Positions 1 through 6,968 of a stretch of 33,051 nucleotides of DNA are shown one piece after another. The notes under the pieces were generated by a model, which was not told where the DNA came from, ran no database searches, and worked only from the letters and a program-made list of their open reading frames with translations. Origin of the DNA: an uncultured Gammaproteobacteria bacterium (lineage in GTDB: Bacteria; Pseudomonadota; Gammaproteobacteria; CAMYKB01). Numbering within the stretch: the stretch's first letter is position 1; each line of letters opens with the position of its first letter. Where the stretch lies: positions 1 to 33,051 of the forward strand of contig CAMYKB010000029.1 in assembly GCA_947258875.1 (NCBI GenBank), given 5' to 3'. Both the position numbers and the translations under genes were made by a program.

Positions 1-1355
1 TGGCTGTCGAGCACCACCGTGAAGTCGGCGGTGGTGCCGGTCTCACTGGTGCTCAAGGTAATCGGGTTCACCGTCACGCCCACCGCATCGTCGTCGGTGA
101 TAGTACCAGTCGCAGTATCGCTAGCATCCACACCCGCGGTTGTGGTCGCCAGACTTACAGTGAAGACTTCATTATTTTCATCAAAGGCGTCATCAATAAT
201 CGGTACCGCGAATGTCACGCTTTGACCTGCACTACCATCAAAATTCAGCGTGCCTGCCGTAGAGTTATAATCGACTCCGCCTCCTATAGCAGTACCATCA
301 GTAAAGCTGTAATCAACTGTATATGCTCCGGCAGCAACAGCATTGTCTGCTGTCACAGTGAAGATTGCGTTACCGGCGGCTTCGTCTACAGTGACGTTTT
401 CTATGATAAGCGTGGTGGCGTCGTCATCGCTGATGGTGACCGTGGCGCTGCCCGCCGTGGTGCTGAGCGTGCCGTTGTCGGTGGTGTCCAGCGTGACGAT
501 CACGCCCTCGCTGCCTTCCACCAGGCTGTCGTCGAGCACCGCAACGTCGATCACGGCGCTCGTACTGTTGGCCGGGATCACCACCGTGCCGCTGAGGGCG
601 GTGTAATCGGTGCCGCTCGTGGCCGTGCCGGTCACGCTGTAGGTGACGGTGGTGTCGGTCGCAACCGGGTTCGTCAGGCTGACCGTGAACTGGCCATTGG
701 TGGCCGGCTCGGCGCCGTCACTGGTCGCCGCGATGCTTACCTCGGTGGCGTCGTCATTGGTAATGGTGTACGTGTTAATGCTCTGGACTGCGTTATCTTG
801 GCCAGCATCACCGATGACCAGGCCAGTGCTTGGGTTTTGCAGGACAAAATCGATTGTTTCATCGGTTTCGACCAACGTTTCATCAATAATGGCCAGATTT
901 ATGGGAACGGCTGTCGTGAAGGTGCCGAGATAGGTGCCCGCTGGAATAGTTACGAGCGTGGTGTTTGTAAAGTCAGCACCACCTGTTGCAGTAGAAGCGG
1001 TAACCGCGACTTCGATGATCTGGTCTGTAGCAAGCGTACCCAGAATCAAAAGCAGGGGGATGTCGCCACCATTGGCTTCCACATCAGAATTTGTCGCAGC
1101 GGCAAATTCAATAAGGGGTTGTAATGCATTACCGTCAGACGCTGAATTGTTACTCGCGTCTGTATCCACTACACCGGCCGGGGCAGTTACAGTGGCTGTG
1201 TTTACTAGTGGGTCCGGATAAGCCGCATACAGCAAGCTGGGGCTGAGAATAGACGCAAACACCACGACAAGCAGGGCAAATAAACGGCCAGCCGTCAGCT
1301 TATTATTTAAAGCTGATACTAAGGTAAAACGTGATGTATTGAATAATGAGCCCAT
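1..1355 (-). CDS. Exported Calx-beta repeat protein, partial (C-terminus beyond window)
   Basis: The frame is open from an ATG at 1355 to the window edge (about 451 residues visible), with AAGGA four bases before the ATG. Residues 1-44 form a signal peptide: basic N-region, hydrophobic core around LFALLVVVFASIL, likely cleavage after LLYA. The mature chain opens with AYPDPLVNTATVTAPAG and ends that segment at NNSASD near residue 74. This matches the last part of a DUF11 domain, not a domain start. Calx-beta-like units follow, each with a DYTALSGTVVIPAN-type stretch, an acidic DDSLVEGSE-type stretch and a closing ISDDDA or ITNDDA. Such repeats usually form extracellular, calcium-binding beta sandwiches. 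Function is unknown; a surface adhesin or matrix role is an inference. Two same-strand genes upstream (1909-2967, 3214-5118) end exactly where this mature N-terminus would continue them. Confidence 0.85.
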   Translation of the reverse strand, partial: MGSLFNTSRFTLVSALNNKLTAGRLFALLVVVFASILSPSLLYAAYPDPLVNTATVTAPAGVVDTDASNNSASDGNALQPLIEFAAATNSDVEANGGDIPLLLILGTLATDQIIEVAVTASTATGGADFTNTTLVTIPAGTYLGTFTTAVPINLAIIDETLVETDETIDFVLQNPSTGLVIGDAGQDNAVQSINTYTITNDDATEVSIAATSDGAEPATNGQFTVSLTNPVATDTTVTYSVTGTATSGTDYTALSGTVVIPANSTSAVIDVAVLDDSLVEGSEGVIVTLDTTDNGTLSTTAGSATVTISDDDATTLIIENVTVDEAAGNAIFTVTADNAVAAGAYTVDYSFTDGTAIGGGVDYNSTAGTLNFDGSAGQSVTFAVPIIDDAFDENNEVFTVSLATTTAGVDASDTATGTITDDDAVGVTVNPITLSTSETGTTADFTVVLDS

Positions 1356-1908
1356 AGGTTCCTTGGTTACACGCGCTTCCCGCATCCCTGTTTGTTACGT
1401 CGTTGTAGCTAGCGCATCGCCCTTATCGCCCGGTGCCTACACTAGATGCCCCCGAGAGATATCAAGTGAATAATATACTACCGAGAATCAGATTTTTGTA
1501 TTTAAATCAATAATTAACAATTATTCACAAACAATTTTTATACAATATAAACGAGTCTTATCGCGCAGAGCACAGGCTCAGCAATACTGTGGATTTTATT
1601 GTACGGTGGAAGCAAGTATCTGCGATTGTGGCTCATGGAGCTGACTTCCCTACTTATCACATATCGTGCAATCCATTTGCACATCACGTTGCACCAAGAG
1701 ACTGGGTGAACAGCTACAATTTCTCGTTAGTTTTCTTTATTGCTGCCGTAAGCCTATACGGTAGAATATTAGGAATGCATAATATGTTCTTGTGTCGCAC
1801 ATTTCCAGACAATGTAATGATATATCACATTAAATAGACCTAAGTGCCGTAAATCACTGATAAACGGGCTAAAGTTTTCAGTGAACAGTTCGCGCAAATG
1901 AAGTTAGC
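1356..1908. other. AT-rich intergenic region upstream of the Calx-beta gene
   Basis: No convincing gene lies here. The region is much richer in A and T than its neighbours and presumably carries the promoter of the leftward gene starting at 1355. A perfect 7-3-7 inverted repeat (AATAATT aac AATTATT) sits at 1509-1525, about 155-170 bases before that start, and could be an operator. An open frame on the plus strand at 1589-1837 has no recognisable motif, signal or ribosome site and was not called. Confidence 0.5.
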
Positions 1909-2967
1909 TTAGTAAGCCCCCGGGTCTGAGGAAAAGGATACCGGCACCGTAAACACCACCGAGGACCCTGCCGGAATATCCACCTGCTGATTGATATTGC
2001 CGGTACCACTGGCTAGCGCACTTACGCTCCCACTGATACAGCTCGCGGAACCTGAAGGCGTACAGCTCCAGCTTCCATTGATGCTTACACCCGCAGGCAA
2101 GGTGTCAGACACCAGTGCATTTACTGCATCATCTGGCCCGGAATTGTTCACTGTCAGTGTATAGCTTGATGTACCACCTGGCGTATAGATTAGCGCGCCG
2201 TCATCCTTGATGACCGACAAGTTTACCTGCGGGTAATCAAACGAAATATCGTGCAGCGTTATCGCCTGGGTGCCAGGCGTTGTCGTCACCGCCTGGTTCG
2301 AGTAAACAATGGTAATTTGCTGGATGGCCACCTGGTCGAAGGTAAATGTAACATTACCAGCTGTACCGTTATTGGGTGAGGTACAGGTGCCTTGTACAGT
2401 ATTAGCATTCACTTGGGTATTGCAGCCGCTAGTCGTAATGCTTGCTGGATTCAGTGCATTGCTGCTGGTATCCGTCGCGGTCACAACAGCTTGATCGATA
2501 AAGTTTGCTCCGGTATCTATATCGTAGAGATTAAACTGGACATTTGATACGCCAACCGTGTGATCAAAGCTGATCGTAATGGTGATGGTTTCGCCAGTGT
2601 TTGAAAATTGCAGAAAATGATCAAGCACCCGCTCACCGGTACCGCCGGTATCAATTGTATTGATTTCGGGCGTATTGAGGAGGAACCTGTTGGTAGCACC
2701 CGTCTGCTGGATAGTGATATTGCCGCCGGTTACCGGATAGCTATTCGGCCCGGTAGATCCCCCCGGCCAGGTTACGACGTCCCAATCCTGTAACCCAGGG
2801 ACGGCATAGGCATTGCCTGCGACTATAGAGAAAATTACAACCAACACGCTGCGCTTAGCGATGCCTGCGCAGCGCCGAAAAAACGGGGCCAAACCAGTAA
2901 GACCCGGCGAAGCGTCCATCCTCCCCAAGGCATCGCCCGCTGTATTTATTATCCAGTTGACACGCAT
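1909..2967 (-). CDS. Exported protein ending in a truncated DUF11 domain
   Basis: 352 residues. The ATG at 2967 was chosen because AGGAGA lies six bases before it; in-frame ATGs at 2991 and 3003 lack this. A long N-region (about 40 residues with FFRR and KRS) leads to a hydrophobic stretch ending GNAYA, a likely signal-peptide site. Residues about 45-245 are a beta-rich domain I cannot name. Residues 247-352 are a DUF11 (Ig-like) domain containing DTLPAGVSINGSW and two cysteines in SWSC and ASCISG. The protein stops (TAA) at FSSDPGAY, before the final NTATVTA/NNSAS strands usual in this family. By hand count its last 106 residues match those of the 3214-5118 product ungapped at about 70 positions, and both stop at the same column. 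Function unknown. Confidence 0.85.
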   Translation of the reverse strand: MRVNWIINTAGDALGRMDASPGLTGLAPFFRRCAGIAKRSVLVVIFSIVAGNAYAVPGLQDWDVVTWPGGSTGPNSYPVTGGNITIQQTGATNRFLLNTPEINTIDTGGTGERVLDHFLQFSNTGETITITISFDHTVGVSNVQFNLYDIDTGANFIDQAVVTATDTSSNALNPASITTSGCNTQVNANTVQGTCTSPNNGTAGNVTFTFDQVAIQQITIVYSNQAVTTTPGTQAITLHDISFDYPQVNLSVIKDDGALIYTPGGTSSYTLTVNNSGPDDAVNALVSDTLPAGVSINGSWSCTPSGSASCISGSVSALASGTGNINQQVDIPAGSSVVFTVPVSFSSDPGAY

Positions 2968-3213
2968 GCATTTTCTCCTAAATTTGCACATGATTTTAGC
3001 CATCGATCATTCGTAATACTAAGACAACAGCAGCTCATCCTTGAAAACATGTCCAACGCTGTGCGCCGGGGTTACTGGCTAACTATAGCCTAAAATCCTG
3101 TCCCCACTAAATACGGTAAGCTATTGATACACAAAAATTTACAATCAACACGGCCTATCGCTGCAATGTCGCGACCGACAATCACAAAACTTATTGTTTA
3201 AGATTGTGACGAG

Positions 3214-5118
3214 CTAATAATCAGCAGGGTCGGATGAAAACAAAACCGGCACAGTAAAAATGACTAAGCCCCCAACCGGTATATCCACCAGTTGACTGAT
3301 ATCTCCGGCACCCGTATCGGTGGCAGCTACACTGCCACTGATGCAACTGGCGCCAGCGGAGGACGCACATGTCCAGCTTCCGTTAATGGAGACACCCGCG
3401 GGAAGCGTGTCTGTCACTACTGCAGCGATCGCGTCATCTGGCCCTGCGTTACTGACAGTAATCGTGTACGCCGCGTTATCACCGGGTATATAAGTTAATG
3501 CGCCATCATCCTTGGTAATGCTGAGATCAACCTGCGCATCGGAAATCGTCCCTAGGCCCTGTGCGTCGAAGCTAATTGCGGTATTGCTGACATTAGTCAA
3601 ATCAACTGTATACGTTTCACTCCCTTCAAGCAGCGCATCCGTCAGAATCGGTACGACAATTATGAGGGTCTCAGTATCAGTACCGGTGAAGGTCAGCGTA
3701 CCGCTGGTTGCAGTGTAGTCGAACCCGGCGGTAGCGGTACCGTCGGTGGTGATGTAATCAATGGTGAAACCATCCTGCACTGCGCCACTCAGGGTTACCG
3801 TGAACGTGGCGGTACCCGCAAACTCATCAACACTGATATCATCGATGGTCAATGATGCAGTGTCGTCGTCAGTAATCGTTGCGCTATCAGTATTAGCGCC
3901 TAATTCAACATCGACAGCGGTGTTGTTCGTACCCGTTAGCGTAACTGTAACCGTTTCCTCAGCTTCAAGTATGAAATCATCGATCACCTCCACCGGTAAA
4001 GCAACGCTGCTGCTGCCGGCCGGAATAACCACCGAACCAATCAAGTTGCTGTAATCGCTGCCGTTAGTCGCCGTGCCTGTTATCGAGTAATTTACAGTGA
4101 GATCACTCGTTAGGGTGCCGCCACTTAGGGTAACGACGAATTCACCATTATCAGCAGGCTCGCCCGCAGCAGGATCTGTCGCAGCAATTGAGACCTGGAA
4201 CGCACACACTTTTATACCAGAGCGCATGTAGTCCTTTAGCTGCGCTGACTTCGAAGTGGAACTTCGCGATTCATGGAGAATTGTATTGAAACAGCTAGGC
4301 GTTCTATTCACGTCGGGCCTGCGGAACAAGGCGCTGACGTTTAACCCATACTCAAAATATTTACCTGTGGGAACCTGGTCCTGCGTGCTGTTCTCGTCGG
4401 GATCATAACTCCAGCCCACACTGATGGGCGCGGTGTTCGCGATACCGCAAATGACTTGATTACCCCCCGAGCACGTTGGCGCACCACTGATGATATTATT
4501 TAGCCCACCGATCCCCGCGTCCCATATATCGACATCGATTGTTACCGCACCGCTACCGGCAATGTCGGCCTGCACCAACACGTCTCCATCCACGTGATCC
4601 CCGTTCCAACTGGTTCCTGCTCCGGGTGCTACACTGCCGTCCTGCAACAACCAGAAACTGACTGATACAGAGCCGGCACTTGGAATGGTATCCAGACCAA
4701 TATAAAAAATAGTGTCGCCCGCCAGATGCACGGTGCCATCTGAGCCGGTCAGACTTGGCCCTGTGTAAGTGTAGTTGGATGCGAAGCCGTGATAGATATC
4801 GTTCTTGGTGTTGACGTTACCGCTGGTCTGCTGCCAGAAAGATACTGCCTCAGTATCTTTGGAGCCACCACCGGTAAAAATTGTATTGTCGTTAGTGCTG
4901 ACATCGATGTCGTCGGTAGCAAACAACTGTAAAGTCGCGGTGCCCGAGGTACCCGCCTGGATCGTGTCGAAATCATCCCCGGAACCGGCTGAATCAGCTG
5001 AATTGGCATCAAGCTCGAACAGGCCAAGATTATCGACTGCATGGGCGTACGGGGTTGCAACTAGCAGGATAGGCAAACACAGCAACACGCCTATCAGCAA
5101 CTGGCAGGCATGAGACAT
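3214..5118 (-). CDS. Exported Calx-beta protein ending in a truncated DUF11 domain
   Basis: 634 residues. The ATG at 5118, with AAGGG a few bases upstream, is preferred over an in-frame GTG at 5163 because it places a normal signal peptide (LLIGVLLCLPILLVATPYAHA) at the N-terminus. Residues about 28-305 form an N-terminal domain with FTGGGSKD and an ESRSSTSKSAQLKDY segment. I have seen this pattern at the front of large DUF11 or Calx-beta surface proteins but cannot name it. Two Calx-beta units follow (about 310-420 and 420-528), with acidic EAEETVTVTL and LLEGSETYTV stretches. Residues 529-634 are a DUF11 domain that stops (TAG) at FSSDPADY, without its usual last strands. It lies between the beta-barrel gene and the other two DUF11-related genes, on the same strand. 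Confidence 0.87.
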   Translation of the reverse strand: MSHACQLLIGVLLCLPILLVATPYAHAVDNLGLFELDANSADSAGSGDDFDTIQAGTSGTATLQLFATDDIDVSTNDNTIFTGGGSKDTEAVSFWQQTSGNVNTKNDIYHGFASNYTYTGPSLTGSDGTVHLAGDTIFYIGLDTIPSAGSVSVSFWLLQDGSVAPGAGTSWNGDHVDGDVLVQADIAGSGAVTIDVDIWDAGIGGLNNIISGAPTCSGGNQVICGIANTAPISVGWSYDPDENSTQDQVPTGKYFEYGLNVSALFRRPDVNRTPSCFNTILHESRSSTSKSAQLKDYMRSGIKVCAFQVSIAATDPAAGEPADNGEFVVTLSGGTLTSDLTVNYSITGTATNGSDYSNLIGSVVIPAGSSSVALPVEVIDDFILEAEETVTVTLTGTNNTAVDVELGANTDSATITDDDTASLTIDDISVDEFAGTATFTVTLSGAVQDGFTIDYITTDGTATAGFDYTATSGTLTFTGTDTETLIIVVPILTDALLEGSETYTVDLTNVSNTAISFDAQGLGTISDAQVDLSITKDDGALTYIPGDNAAYTITVSNAGPDDAIAAVVTDTLPAGVSINGSWTCASSAGASCISGSVAATDTGAGDISQLVDIPVGGLVIFTVPVLFSSDPADY

Positions 5119-5468
5119 CGCACCCTTAACGGGGCGGCGGTATATAACTAAGGGGTAGAGCACTGCCTGTTACACCAACCTGAAAAGTCCTTTTGTTACA
5201 TCGATATCACGCGGACTGGCCCGCTGCACATAGTCATCGGGGGTTCCACATCTGAACTTAGCGGGATAATACAGCAATTAACACCTAAACTATTGCTTGT
5301 AAGCACCTGATTTACTGAAATTTACAATCGTTTCTGCTTAAACAACACATTAAACCGACAGATGACCTAAAGTTTTACTCTGACACTTAATGTTCCCGAG
5401 GCAGGTGGTCGCGAAGCCGGCTGTGCAGCTTTCGGTGTACAGAAATTCTATCCAGTCAATCCGGGGGG
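5119..5468. other. Intergenic region upstream of the Calx-beta/DUF11 gene
   Basis: No gene seen. The stretch separates the beta-barrel gene (stop at 5469) from the leftward gene starting at 5118 and should hold the latter's promoter. The 12-mer AAATTTACAATC at 5318-5329 recurs at 3135-3146 upstream of the next gene in the cluster. The run TTTTGTTACATCG near 5192-5204 resembles TTTGTTACGTCG upstream of the gene starting at 1355. Both shared words are candidates for common regulation. Confidence 0.4.
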
Positions 5469-6968
5469 TCAGTACTTGCCGGCGAGGCTGACGAACCAGC
5501 CACCGTTATTGAAATTGAAATCGGTGAGATCGTCTTTAAGACGCGCCGAACTGTAGCCGACACCCAGCCGCAGGTCATTCCGCAGATTACGATAGATCGT
5601 CACCTTACGGTTATGCTGTTCATGCTCTGCATTACTGTCATCAAGCCAGCGATACTCTGCCTGTGCATTCCAGCGCTCGGGAATTTGATAATCCATGGCC
5701 AATTTTGCGGATGCCGTCTCGGAATGGTTCCAGAAACCCAAAACGCGGTCCTGACGAATCGACGACAGCCCGTAATCAAGGTTCCCGCTTAGCCTCCATG
5801 CATCGAGAATGTGGTAACTGCCTTTGAATGACAACATCTGCAAGCGCTTGCCTGGGATTGTATCCTGCAACCAACTTGGTTGGTCATATAAATAACGATA
5901 TCTTCCTGAGACCTTGAACAAATTGCTTCCCATTGGTAACCCGACAATAGTCAAATCGACTTTATATTTCTGCGCGTCCCTATACCCCGTGGATCGATCA
6001 AAACTTACAAAATAGTCGAGCTGGCCTGTAAGTGTCAGATTGTCACTCGCCTTGAAGCTGCTTCCACTTGTGTATAACCACTGATCAACACTGAACAACT
6101 CCTTGTCACCACGCGCATATTCAAGCTGGTGTTGCAGAGACACACGATGATGCCGGTAGTCAGTTGTTAGGCTTAGAGCTTCAAAATGCTGGTTCGCGTT
6201 ATCAGCTGCTCGAATTCCACTGGTTTTGGCGGATATCTTAAATCCAAGCTTGTTTGACGCTGTATATCCCAAACCTAATTCACTACCTGTGTTTTCCTGT
6301 TTGTCATCGCTATCAAAATTGTTCTTATGAAAGCCGTACACACGTTTACCGAGGGCAAGCTTGCCCTCCACCTGCATTTTATTATGCCGGGCACTGCCAT
6401 TCCTTGATGACGATTGATACTTGCTGCTGATGTGGTAGTTTTTGTTGGGTTTATAGTTAAGACCCAATGCCAGCTTATCACTCCGAACAGAGTTTACCGC
6501 TTCGGCCTGTACAGCCATGTGATCACTGATGCGCATTTTTGCGCCCAGGCTATAAACAGCGCTATCGTCAACAACACTGTCGTTGCCAAACTTTGACTGG
6601 GCCGCACCGTAAATAGCAATATTAGGTGCAATGCTATAATCCATGTTGACTGCACCCTGTAGCGATACCTCGTCCTTATCTGTATTTATATTACTAAGTT
6701 GGCGTAATTCTGATTTCAGGACCAACCTGTCGTCGATTCGATAGCTGCCCTGCTGTTGGTAGTGTTGTTGAAGACCATCAGCTGCCCTGACAATACCAGC
6801 CTGACCGACGGATGCATAAGACGGATACGGGTAGGCCAATACCAGCAACAAACATGAAAAGATGAATGGTGATCGTTCACCATAAAAGACCGACGTGTAG
6901 GTAGGGGCTACAGTGTTGCCAAGGGATGTCCGCCCCACTGGAATGATGTTGGTGCCGGGATACTGCAT
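5469..6968 (-). CDS. Outer-membrane beta-barrel protein
   Basis: 499 residues. The ATG at 6968 has AAGGA four bases upstream. An unusually long N-region (about 33 residues) precedes a hydrophobic stretch FIFSCLLLVLAYPYPSYA, probably the signal peptide. From about residue 70 to the end the sequence alternates polar and hydrophobic residues with recurring aromatic strand ends, and it finishes GGWFVSLAGKY, a C-terminal aromatic strand typical of outer-membrane barrels. The last 40 residues (LGVGYSSARLKDDLTDFNFN) resemble the barrel often fused to the end of very large DUF11/SdrD-like repeat proteins. Here the barrel stands alone, and repeat proteins are encoded just downstream on the same strand. 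A role as anchor or export partner for them is an inference. Confidence 0.75.
   Translation of the reverse strand: MQYPGTNIIPVGRTSLGNTVAPTYTSVFYGERSPFIFSCLLLVLAYPYPSYASVGQAGIVRAADGLQQHYQQQGSYRIDDRLVLKSELRQLSNINTDKDEVSLQGAVNMDYSIAPNIAIYGAAQSKFGNDSVVDDSAVYSLGAKMRISDHMAVQAEAVNSVRSDKLALGLNYKPNKNYHISSKYQSSSRNGSARHNKMQVEGKLALGKRVYGFHKNNFDSDDKQENTGSELGLGYTASNKLGFKISAKTSGIRAADNANQHFEALSLTTDYRHHRVSLQHQLEYARGDKELFSVDQWLYTSGSSFKASDNLTLTGQLDYFVSFDRSTGYRDAQKYKVDLTIVGLPMGSNLFKVSGRYRYLYDQPSWLQDTIPGKRLQMLSFKGSYHILDAWRLSGNLDYGLSSIRQDRVLGFWNHSETASAKLAMDYQIPERWNAQAEYRWLDDSNAEHEQHNRKVTIYRNLRNDLRLGVGYSSARLKDDLTDFNFNNGGWFVSLAGKY

Follow-up and report, generated by a model that had tools for sequence, protein, structure and literature searches.

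A DUF11/CLIPPER domain encoded in two genes as the probable, and probably covalent, junction of a two-protein gammaproteobacterial adhesin

Why should two neighbouring secreted proteins end at the same point inside a DUF11 domain, and why should a third begin, after removal of its signal peptide, with what looks like the rest of that domain? The question is raised by three genes on contig C29 of a gammaproteobacterial draft genome of 67 contigs and 3.01 Mb; the whole contig, 33,051 bases, is referred to here as the window. All three lie on the minus strand, C (5163-3214) first, then B (3003-1909) and finally A (1385 to beyond position 1); we call C and B acceptors and A the donor (Table 1). 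Our analysis makes it quite likely that they encode a two-protein fibrillar adhesin, the tip and stalk of which are held together by a single DUF11/CLIPPER domain divided over two genes. With somewhat less confidence, we consider it probable that this is a natural split isopeptide domain, by which separately secreted tips become spontaneously and covalently ligated, via an intermolecular Lys-Asn bond, to an outer-membrane-anchored stalk, with one stalk type for several interchangeable tips per genome (up to six acceptors per donor).

One DUF11 domain in two genes

The half-domains of B and C end at the same column, position 108 of their alignment, C with ...FTVPVLFSSDPADY before TAG and B with ...FTVPVSFSSDPGAY before TAA; the shared end with different stop codons had already been noticed in a first-pass annotation of this DNA. 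Both match the Pfam DUF11 profile (PF01345; 114 positions) above its cut-off of 24.6 bits, with 37.0 bits for B and 44.3 bits for C, covering profile positions 3-97 and 1-77, respectively. A complete immunoglobulin (Ig)-like sandwich of seven to nine strands is not found in one chain, since the acceptors end at profile positions 77-97 and the tail is encoded by another gene. In the same Pfam scan, neither the N-terminal region of C nor the N-terminal domain of B had any match. The tail belongs to gene A, which reads ...SPSLLYA/AYPDPLVNTATVTAPAGVVDTDASNNSASD around the predicted cleavage site (slash). The 40-residue segment at the mature N-terminus of A matches by itself profile positions 90-111, the part missing from the acceptors, and joining it to them raises the PF01345 score from 41.7 to 50.7 bits for B and from 50.1 to 57.7 bits for C, which bears out the earlier proposal that A starts with what follows the split column. 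Judged from these sequences, the acceptors appear to lack strands that a second chain supplies, as in donor-strand complementation.

The common end column is not due to chance, because a decayed third acceptor half-domain on contig C1 of the same genome (G000:C1:42376-42597; about 6376-6600 in locus L004) and homologues in other genomes end there too, the decayed copy with FSADPNDY-TAA, at the same Tyr-stop column. This copy has an internal TGA and no start, and lies beside a LexA/S24-like gene. Further DUF11 sequences of the source genome comprise an intact domain on contig C20 and a non-significant match on C7. An origin of the split by recombination, for instance in a shufflon, was considered and rejected, as the gene ends have no matching direct or inverted DNA repeats.

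The same split in Xanthomonadaceae

When one genome per species was searched with the two halves combined into a single query, loci came up in Stenotrophomonas and Pseudoxanthomonas, in which the first gene ends with ...TVPVSFSADPAAY and a stop codon and the next gene on the same strand encodes a signal peptide with, for example, QAYRNPLVNTATVTAPADISDPTPGNNTASDSNAL immediately after it. A genome scan with the B/C alignment as query and a viral scan detected no relatives, and one candidate (L063) was discarded as an unrelated match. Among 398 genomes of the order to which these loci belong, we found 32 acceptors in 17 genomes, all of one family. Together with three from the first loci and with B and C of the window they form a set of 37; Tyr-stop is the exact end of 34 of these, two continue with VP after the Tyr, and one has Phe-stop. 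The 35 Xanthomonadaceae acceptors taken alone (32 with Tyr-stop, two with Tyr and two further residues, one with Phe-stop) all end at the split column or within two residues of it. In the open reading frames (ORFs) of the fetched loci, 39 DUF11 matches stop precisely at this column and hardly any in the 20 residues on either side, a count biased by the choice of loci but with a sharp edge.

In 17 loci (17 of the 35 Xanthomonadaceae acceptors), the donor is the gene directly after the acceptor, and 141-243 bases separate the acceptor end from the donor segment, the room needed by a signal peptide. A reverse search from the donors retrieved 16 true donors, that is, signal-peptide proteins starting with the DUF11 remainder, in 245 genomes of the family; 13 of them have an acceptor just upstream, and four of these linked pairs occur in genomes new to the survey, bringing the linked loci to 21 besides the window. 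Within the order sample, 16 of the 17 acceptor-bearing genomes also have a donor. In one genus (G622, G636, G652 and G672), each genome contains between three and six acceptors, which mostly lie apart from donors; a linked donor is present in G622 and G636, and a single unlinked donor in each of G652 and G672. Overall, a donor is present in four of the five genomes with unlinked acceptors. Several acceptors coexist with a single donor in G652 and G672, as do the two acceptors and one donor of the window; it therefore appears that more than one acceptor can be served by the same donor, which the first-pass annotation had not pointed out. Samples of about 400 genomes each from the phylum and the class did not reveal the arrangement outside the source genome and the Xanthomonadaceae, and a DNA pattern for the Tyr-stop end matched, among 369 class relatives, only the source genome, besides one chance match. 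The first-pass annotation had pointed to other genomes as the place where truncated DUF11 proteins and their remainders, or else one continuous gene, might come to light; both halves did, and no relative encoding them as one continuous gene was found.

Some of these loci show peculiarities of their own. In one Xanthomonadaceae genus, acceptor genes adjoin each other, two in a row lacking a donor (L115, L116 and L122); their N-terminal adhesin domains vary between copies and the C-terminal half-domain is kept, as expected of interchangeable tips. In the donors of one genus (L113, L114, L153 and L154), an insertion lying between the two donor strands brings in two cysteines (SCTGAG...CSSTD or CTANGG...CSATD), which may form a disulphide within the hairpin. 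In Stenotrophomonas sp. 278 (L062, 2586-4655), the acceptor frame is broken near its 3' end and the adjoining donor is kept; the break could be a sequencing error or a real loss.

Donor strands fold with the acceptor

We modelled a Stenotrophomonas acceptor-donor pair with AlphaFold2 as one artificial chain, with the stops read through and the signal peptide in the linker, using a 29-row alignment; the read-through chain is an artificial linker and makes no claim of biological read-through. The predicted local distance difference test (pLDDT) was mostly 93-97 in the acceptor domain block and below 50 in the linker, and reached 75, 94, 88 and 73 over four blocks of the donor segment, with strands at 188-195 and 209-216. 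In a control from which the acceptor was absent and in which the same donor segment was followed by its own next domain, the segment was disordered (pLDDT 40, 47, 38 and 44). In these models, the donor strands fold confidently only with the acceptor present in the chain. The best Protein Data Bank match of the linked model in Foldseek was 9IFR, with a TM-score of 0.69 by target length and 220 alignment columns on this 123-residue target; these columns need both halves flanking the linker, so the halves sit at the places that they have in an intact domain. From its sequence, the acceptor domain is predicted to be incomplete by itself.

The in-trans completion of an Ig-like fold, suggested in the first-pass annotation, is therefore supported for two halves carried by separate secreted proteins: the split is conserved outside the genome, adjacent pairs recur, most genomes with unlinked acceptors also have a donor, continuous relatives were not found, and the donor folds with the acceptor only.

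An isopeptide triad divided between two chains

The 9IFR crystal structure is that of a DUF11 domain, renamed CLIPPER, from the Acinetobacter fibrillar adhesin B9T28_05395 (PMC12617251). Its intramolecular isopeptide bond links Lys715 of the first strand to Asn806 near the end, with Asp748 as presumed catalyst; the bond is missing in some DUF11 domains, and the word "split" is absent from the paper describing them (PMC12617251). The split domain has the same triad, yet divided, with Lys and Asp in the acceptor and Asn in the donor. None of the 37 acceptors deviates at the Lys of LSITK or the Asp of VTDTLPAG; in the donors, the Asn of LVNTATV does not vary within a 12-row alignment, and the unlinked donors have it too. 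Intact CLIPPER domains of the same loci carry the full triad in one chain in 62 of 70 cases, and in the first intact domain of the donors it is invariant.

As the Lys and Asp that belong to the donor Asn are on a different chain, and the acceptor Lys is likewise separated from its Asn, the simplest consequence would be an interchain Lys-Asn bond. Over the last strands the sequences align too poorly with 9IFR, so the equivalence of the Asn rests on strand order and on the fold match. On that footing, the split domain should form an intermolecular Lys-Asn isopeptide bond, and the junction would probably be covalent rather than one of donor-strand complementation alone, a point that goes beyond the first-pass annotation.

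Adhesive tips, an anchored stalk and their proposed assembly

Xanthomonad donors are 946-4530 aa long as read (one is shortened by its frame) and end with a conserved module followed by OmpA-like sequence; the gene after the donor, where readable, encodes a barrel protein of about 1240 aa. In the source genome, a 2579-residue ORF open at the start of contig C20 (L058, G000:C20:1-7741) contains, in this order, Big_13 repeats, an SdrD-B-like domain, one intact DUF11, a donor-type module and a fused outer-membrane barrel of 1150 residues. It matches the donor C-terminal module plus the barrel encoded by the third gene of the Xanthomonad operon, with 39-41% identity over the 1150 residues of the barrel. 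Gene A breaks off where a Calx-beta-type repeat begins, and C20 opens shortly before such a repeat ends; the two are therefore very likely one gene broken in its repeats, and A probably continues on C20. The anchor of the source genome would then lie on C20 and not on the window contig.

Acceptors of other species carry GEVED, prealbumin-like and, in some cases, CshA_NR2 domains, the last being a known ligand-binding adhesin domain, and donor stalks consist of DUF11 or Calx-beta repeats, plus OmpA. Adhesin domains in the acceptors, together with repeats and an OmpA-like end in the donors, support, as far as domain content goes, the acceptor as adhesive tip and the donor as stalk. In the window, where C has two Calx-beta domains and B an unassigned domain, the adhesive role of the acceptors is a putative one. 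No chaperone or usher genes are adjacent: the search, confined to the neighbouring genes, showed acceptor, donor and a barrel protein, the last with no Pfam match to an usher.

What is observed or computed (the split and its conservation, the gene pairing, the conserved triad and the folding of the donor with the acceptor in a single-chain model) leads us to infer a two-chain complex, with its bond, tip function and export route, as follows. C and B would be secreted with a C-terminal CLIPPER domain ending before its last two strands, and A would be a giant surface protein in which removal of the signal peptide leaves those two strands as mature N-terminus. After export, the donor strands would complete the acceptor beta-sandwich and place its Lys and catalytic Asp against the donor Asn, allowing an autocatalytic Lys-Asn isopeptide bond to form between the chains. 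With the donor C-terminus probably held in the outer membrane via the OmpA-like domain and the beta-barrel, the adhesive domains of the acceptors would become covalently fixed, interchangeable tips.

Alternative explanations

Several observations weigh against this assembly. The triad is also kept in intact CLIPPER domains, and its conservation by itself is no proof of an interchain bond. By sequence, the joined domain can be aligned with 9IFR only weakly (E about 0.06) and not over the last strands, and the acceptor Asp aligns one residue off the published Asp748. The AlphaFold2 support comes from a single chain of a relative, not from two chains nor from the window pair. Moreover, in one genome (G695) an acceptor ending ...SSNPGDF-stop (L110, G695:C88) was found and no donor was detected, the sole exception to the co-occurrence of both halves. 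The strands could be completed in trans at a non-covalent junction, with Lys, Asp and Asn inherited from intact DUF11 domains and no interchain bond. Pairing, synteny and folding evidence fit this equally well, and some DUF11 domains do lack the bond (PMC12617251). We nevertheless consider it rather unlikely, given that Lys and Asp in 37 of 37 acceptors and an invariant Asn have been retained in two genes among very diverged sequences, and that a buried unpaired lysine would presumably be costly.

Alternatively, the C-terminal domain of the acceptor might be complete, with Tyr-stop as its natural end and the donor tail as an N-terminal extension packing on the next domain of the donor. This would agree with the pLDDT of 93-97 of the acceptor residues, obtained in a model that includes the donor, and with the 18 Xanthomonad acceptors that have no adjacent donor. 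It is made very unlikely by the disorder of the donor segment modelled with that next domain, by an acceptor Lys lacking an Asn partner in cis, by a Pfam match that stops early and has its remainder filled exactly by the donor tail, and by the presence of donors in all but one of the acceptor-bearing genomes of the order sample. Gene fission, decay or domain shuffling, put forward in the first-pass annotation as the plain alternative, would make stump and tail the leftovers of a broken longer ancestor, devoid of joint function. Although the copy on C1 is decayed and adhesins commonly undergo domain shuffling, this account does not explain a single break column in many species, two conserved halves each with a signal peptide, the adjacent pairs, or the donors in genomes with stand-alone acceptors; unlinked acceptors coexist with an unlinked donor, whereas leftovers would drift or be lost. 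It appears highly improbable. Stop-codon read-through or frameshifting, which would yield one continuous protein, could be entertained for the six loci where the donor is in the acceptor's frame, in five of which only a single TAG or TGA intervenes. Other pairs, among them B-A of the window, are out of frame, the stops vary (TAA, TAG and TGA), a full signal peptide lies between the halves and these are unlinked in some genomes, so that this explanation can practically be dismissed.

Genes of the window

All three genes reported in the first-pass annotation are present, with slightly different start codons (5163, 3003 and 1385 for C, B and A, instead of 5118, 2967 and 1355). Directly upstream of C, the window also encodes a short stand-alone barrel adjoining the acceptor genes, a paralogue of the terminal barrel of the C20 protein (31% identity over 445 aa, E 1e-70).

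Table 1. Features of the split-domain locus in the window.
Feature	Position	Strand	Description
Gene C, acceptor 1	3214..5163	-	649 aa from GTG; alternative ATG start at 5118; stop TAG; signal peptide, N-terminal region, two Calx-beta domains, C-terminal DUF11/CLIPPER lacking the last two strands
Acceptor half-domain of C	3217..3534	-	Ends FSSDPADY; conserved Lys codon 3511-3513, Asp codon 3409-3411
Gene B, acceptor 2	1909..3003	-	364 aa; stop TAA; signal peptide, N-terminal domain, C-terminal DUF11/CLIPPER lacking the last two strands
Acceptor half-domain of B	1912..2229	-	Ends FSSDPGAY; conserved Lys codon 2206-2208, Asp codon 2104-2106
Gene A, donor	1..1385	-	461 aa within the contig, open at left contig end; signal peptide, donor segment, Calx-beta repeats
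Signal peptide region of A	1224..1385	-	...FALLVVVFASILSPSLLYA; assigned by reading of the sequence
Donor segment (mature N-terminus of A)	1104..1223	-	AYPDPLVNTATVTAPAGVVDTDASNNSASDGNALQPLIEF; last two DUF11 strands; conserved Asn codon 1200-1202
Outer-membrane beta-barrel protein	5469..6968	-	499 aa; same strand as C

Significance and comparison with known systems

If this assembly is real, Gram-negative bacteria fix adhesive heads to long stalks by a natural tag/catcher reaction that dispenses with sortase, chaperone and usher, and the heads are exchangeable on one stalk. It would represent a new route to covalent surface assembly and the natural counterpart of a widely used laboratory tool, and would provide a new orthogonal protein-ligation pair. 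It would also explain the truncated look of some DUF11 proteins and let annotators link acceptors to donors elsewhere in the genome. CLIPPER domains, donor-strand complementation, autocatalytic isopeptide bonds and engineered split pairs are already known; a naturally split CLIPPER domain or a natural tag/catcher adhesin was not described in the literature searched, which did not include subscription literature.

One close relative is the CLIPPER domain of 9IFR (PMC12617251), with which the split domain shares the Pfam family, the fold, a Lys-Asn isopeptide with an Asp catalyst and the occurrence in OmpA-like fibrillar adhesins of Gram-negatives (the last two predicted here). In 9IFR, however, all strands and the triad lie in one chain and the bond is intramolecular, whereas in our case a second protein carries the Asn and the last two strands. 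SpyTag/SpyCatcher, DogTag/DogCatcher and related engineered pairs are likewise isopeptide domains in which a small strand tag has been separated from a large catcher and rejoins it, the spontaneous cross-link being a prediction in our case. Those splits, however, were engineered into CnaB-type or other streptococcal domains, in contrast with the naturally divided CLIPPER domain described here, which is CnaA-like and has its two-strand tag at a mature N-terminus. Chaperone-usher and type V pili, TasA and archaeal bundling pili, which use donor-strand complementation or exchange, resemble the proposed system in that an incomplete Ig-like domain is completed by strands of the N-terminal extension of another subunit. 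Unlike in them, no chaperone or usher was seen among the neighbouring genes, nor any polymer, and one donor stalk with separate tips, two supplied strands and a covalent bond are predicted instead. The threads of Sulfolobus acidocaldarius (Saci_0406; PMC9715654) also combine donor-strand complementation with a proposed intermolecular isopeptide bond, but they are homopolymers of an unrelated family in which the N-terminal Asp24 would be joined to Asn57 two subunits away, outside a classical Lys-Asn isopeptide domain. Finally, HK97-type phage capsids offer a natural autocatalytic Lys-Asn isopeptide bond between separate chains, as predicted here, although theirs is Glu-catalysed and set in a capsid protein fold rather than in a split surface-adhesin domain.

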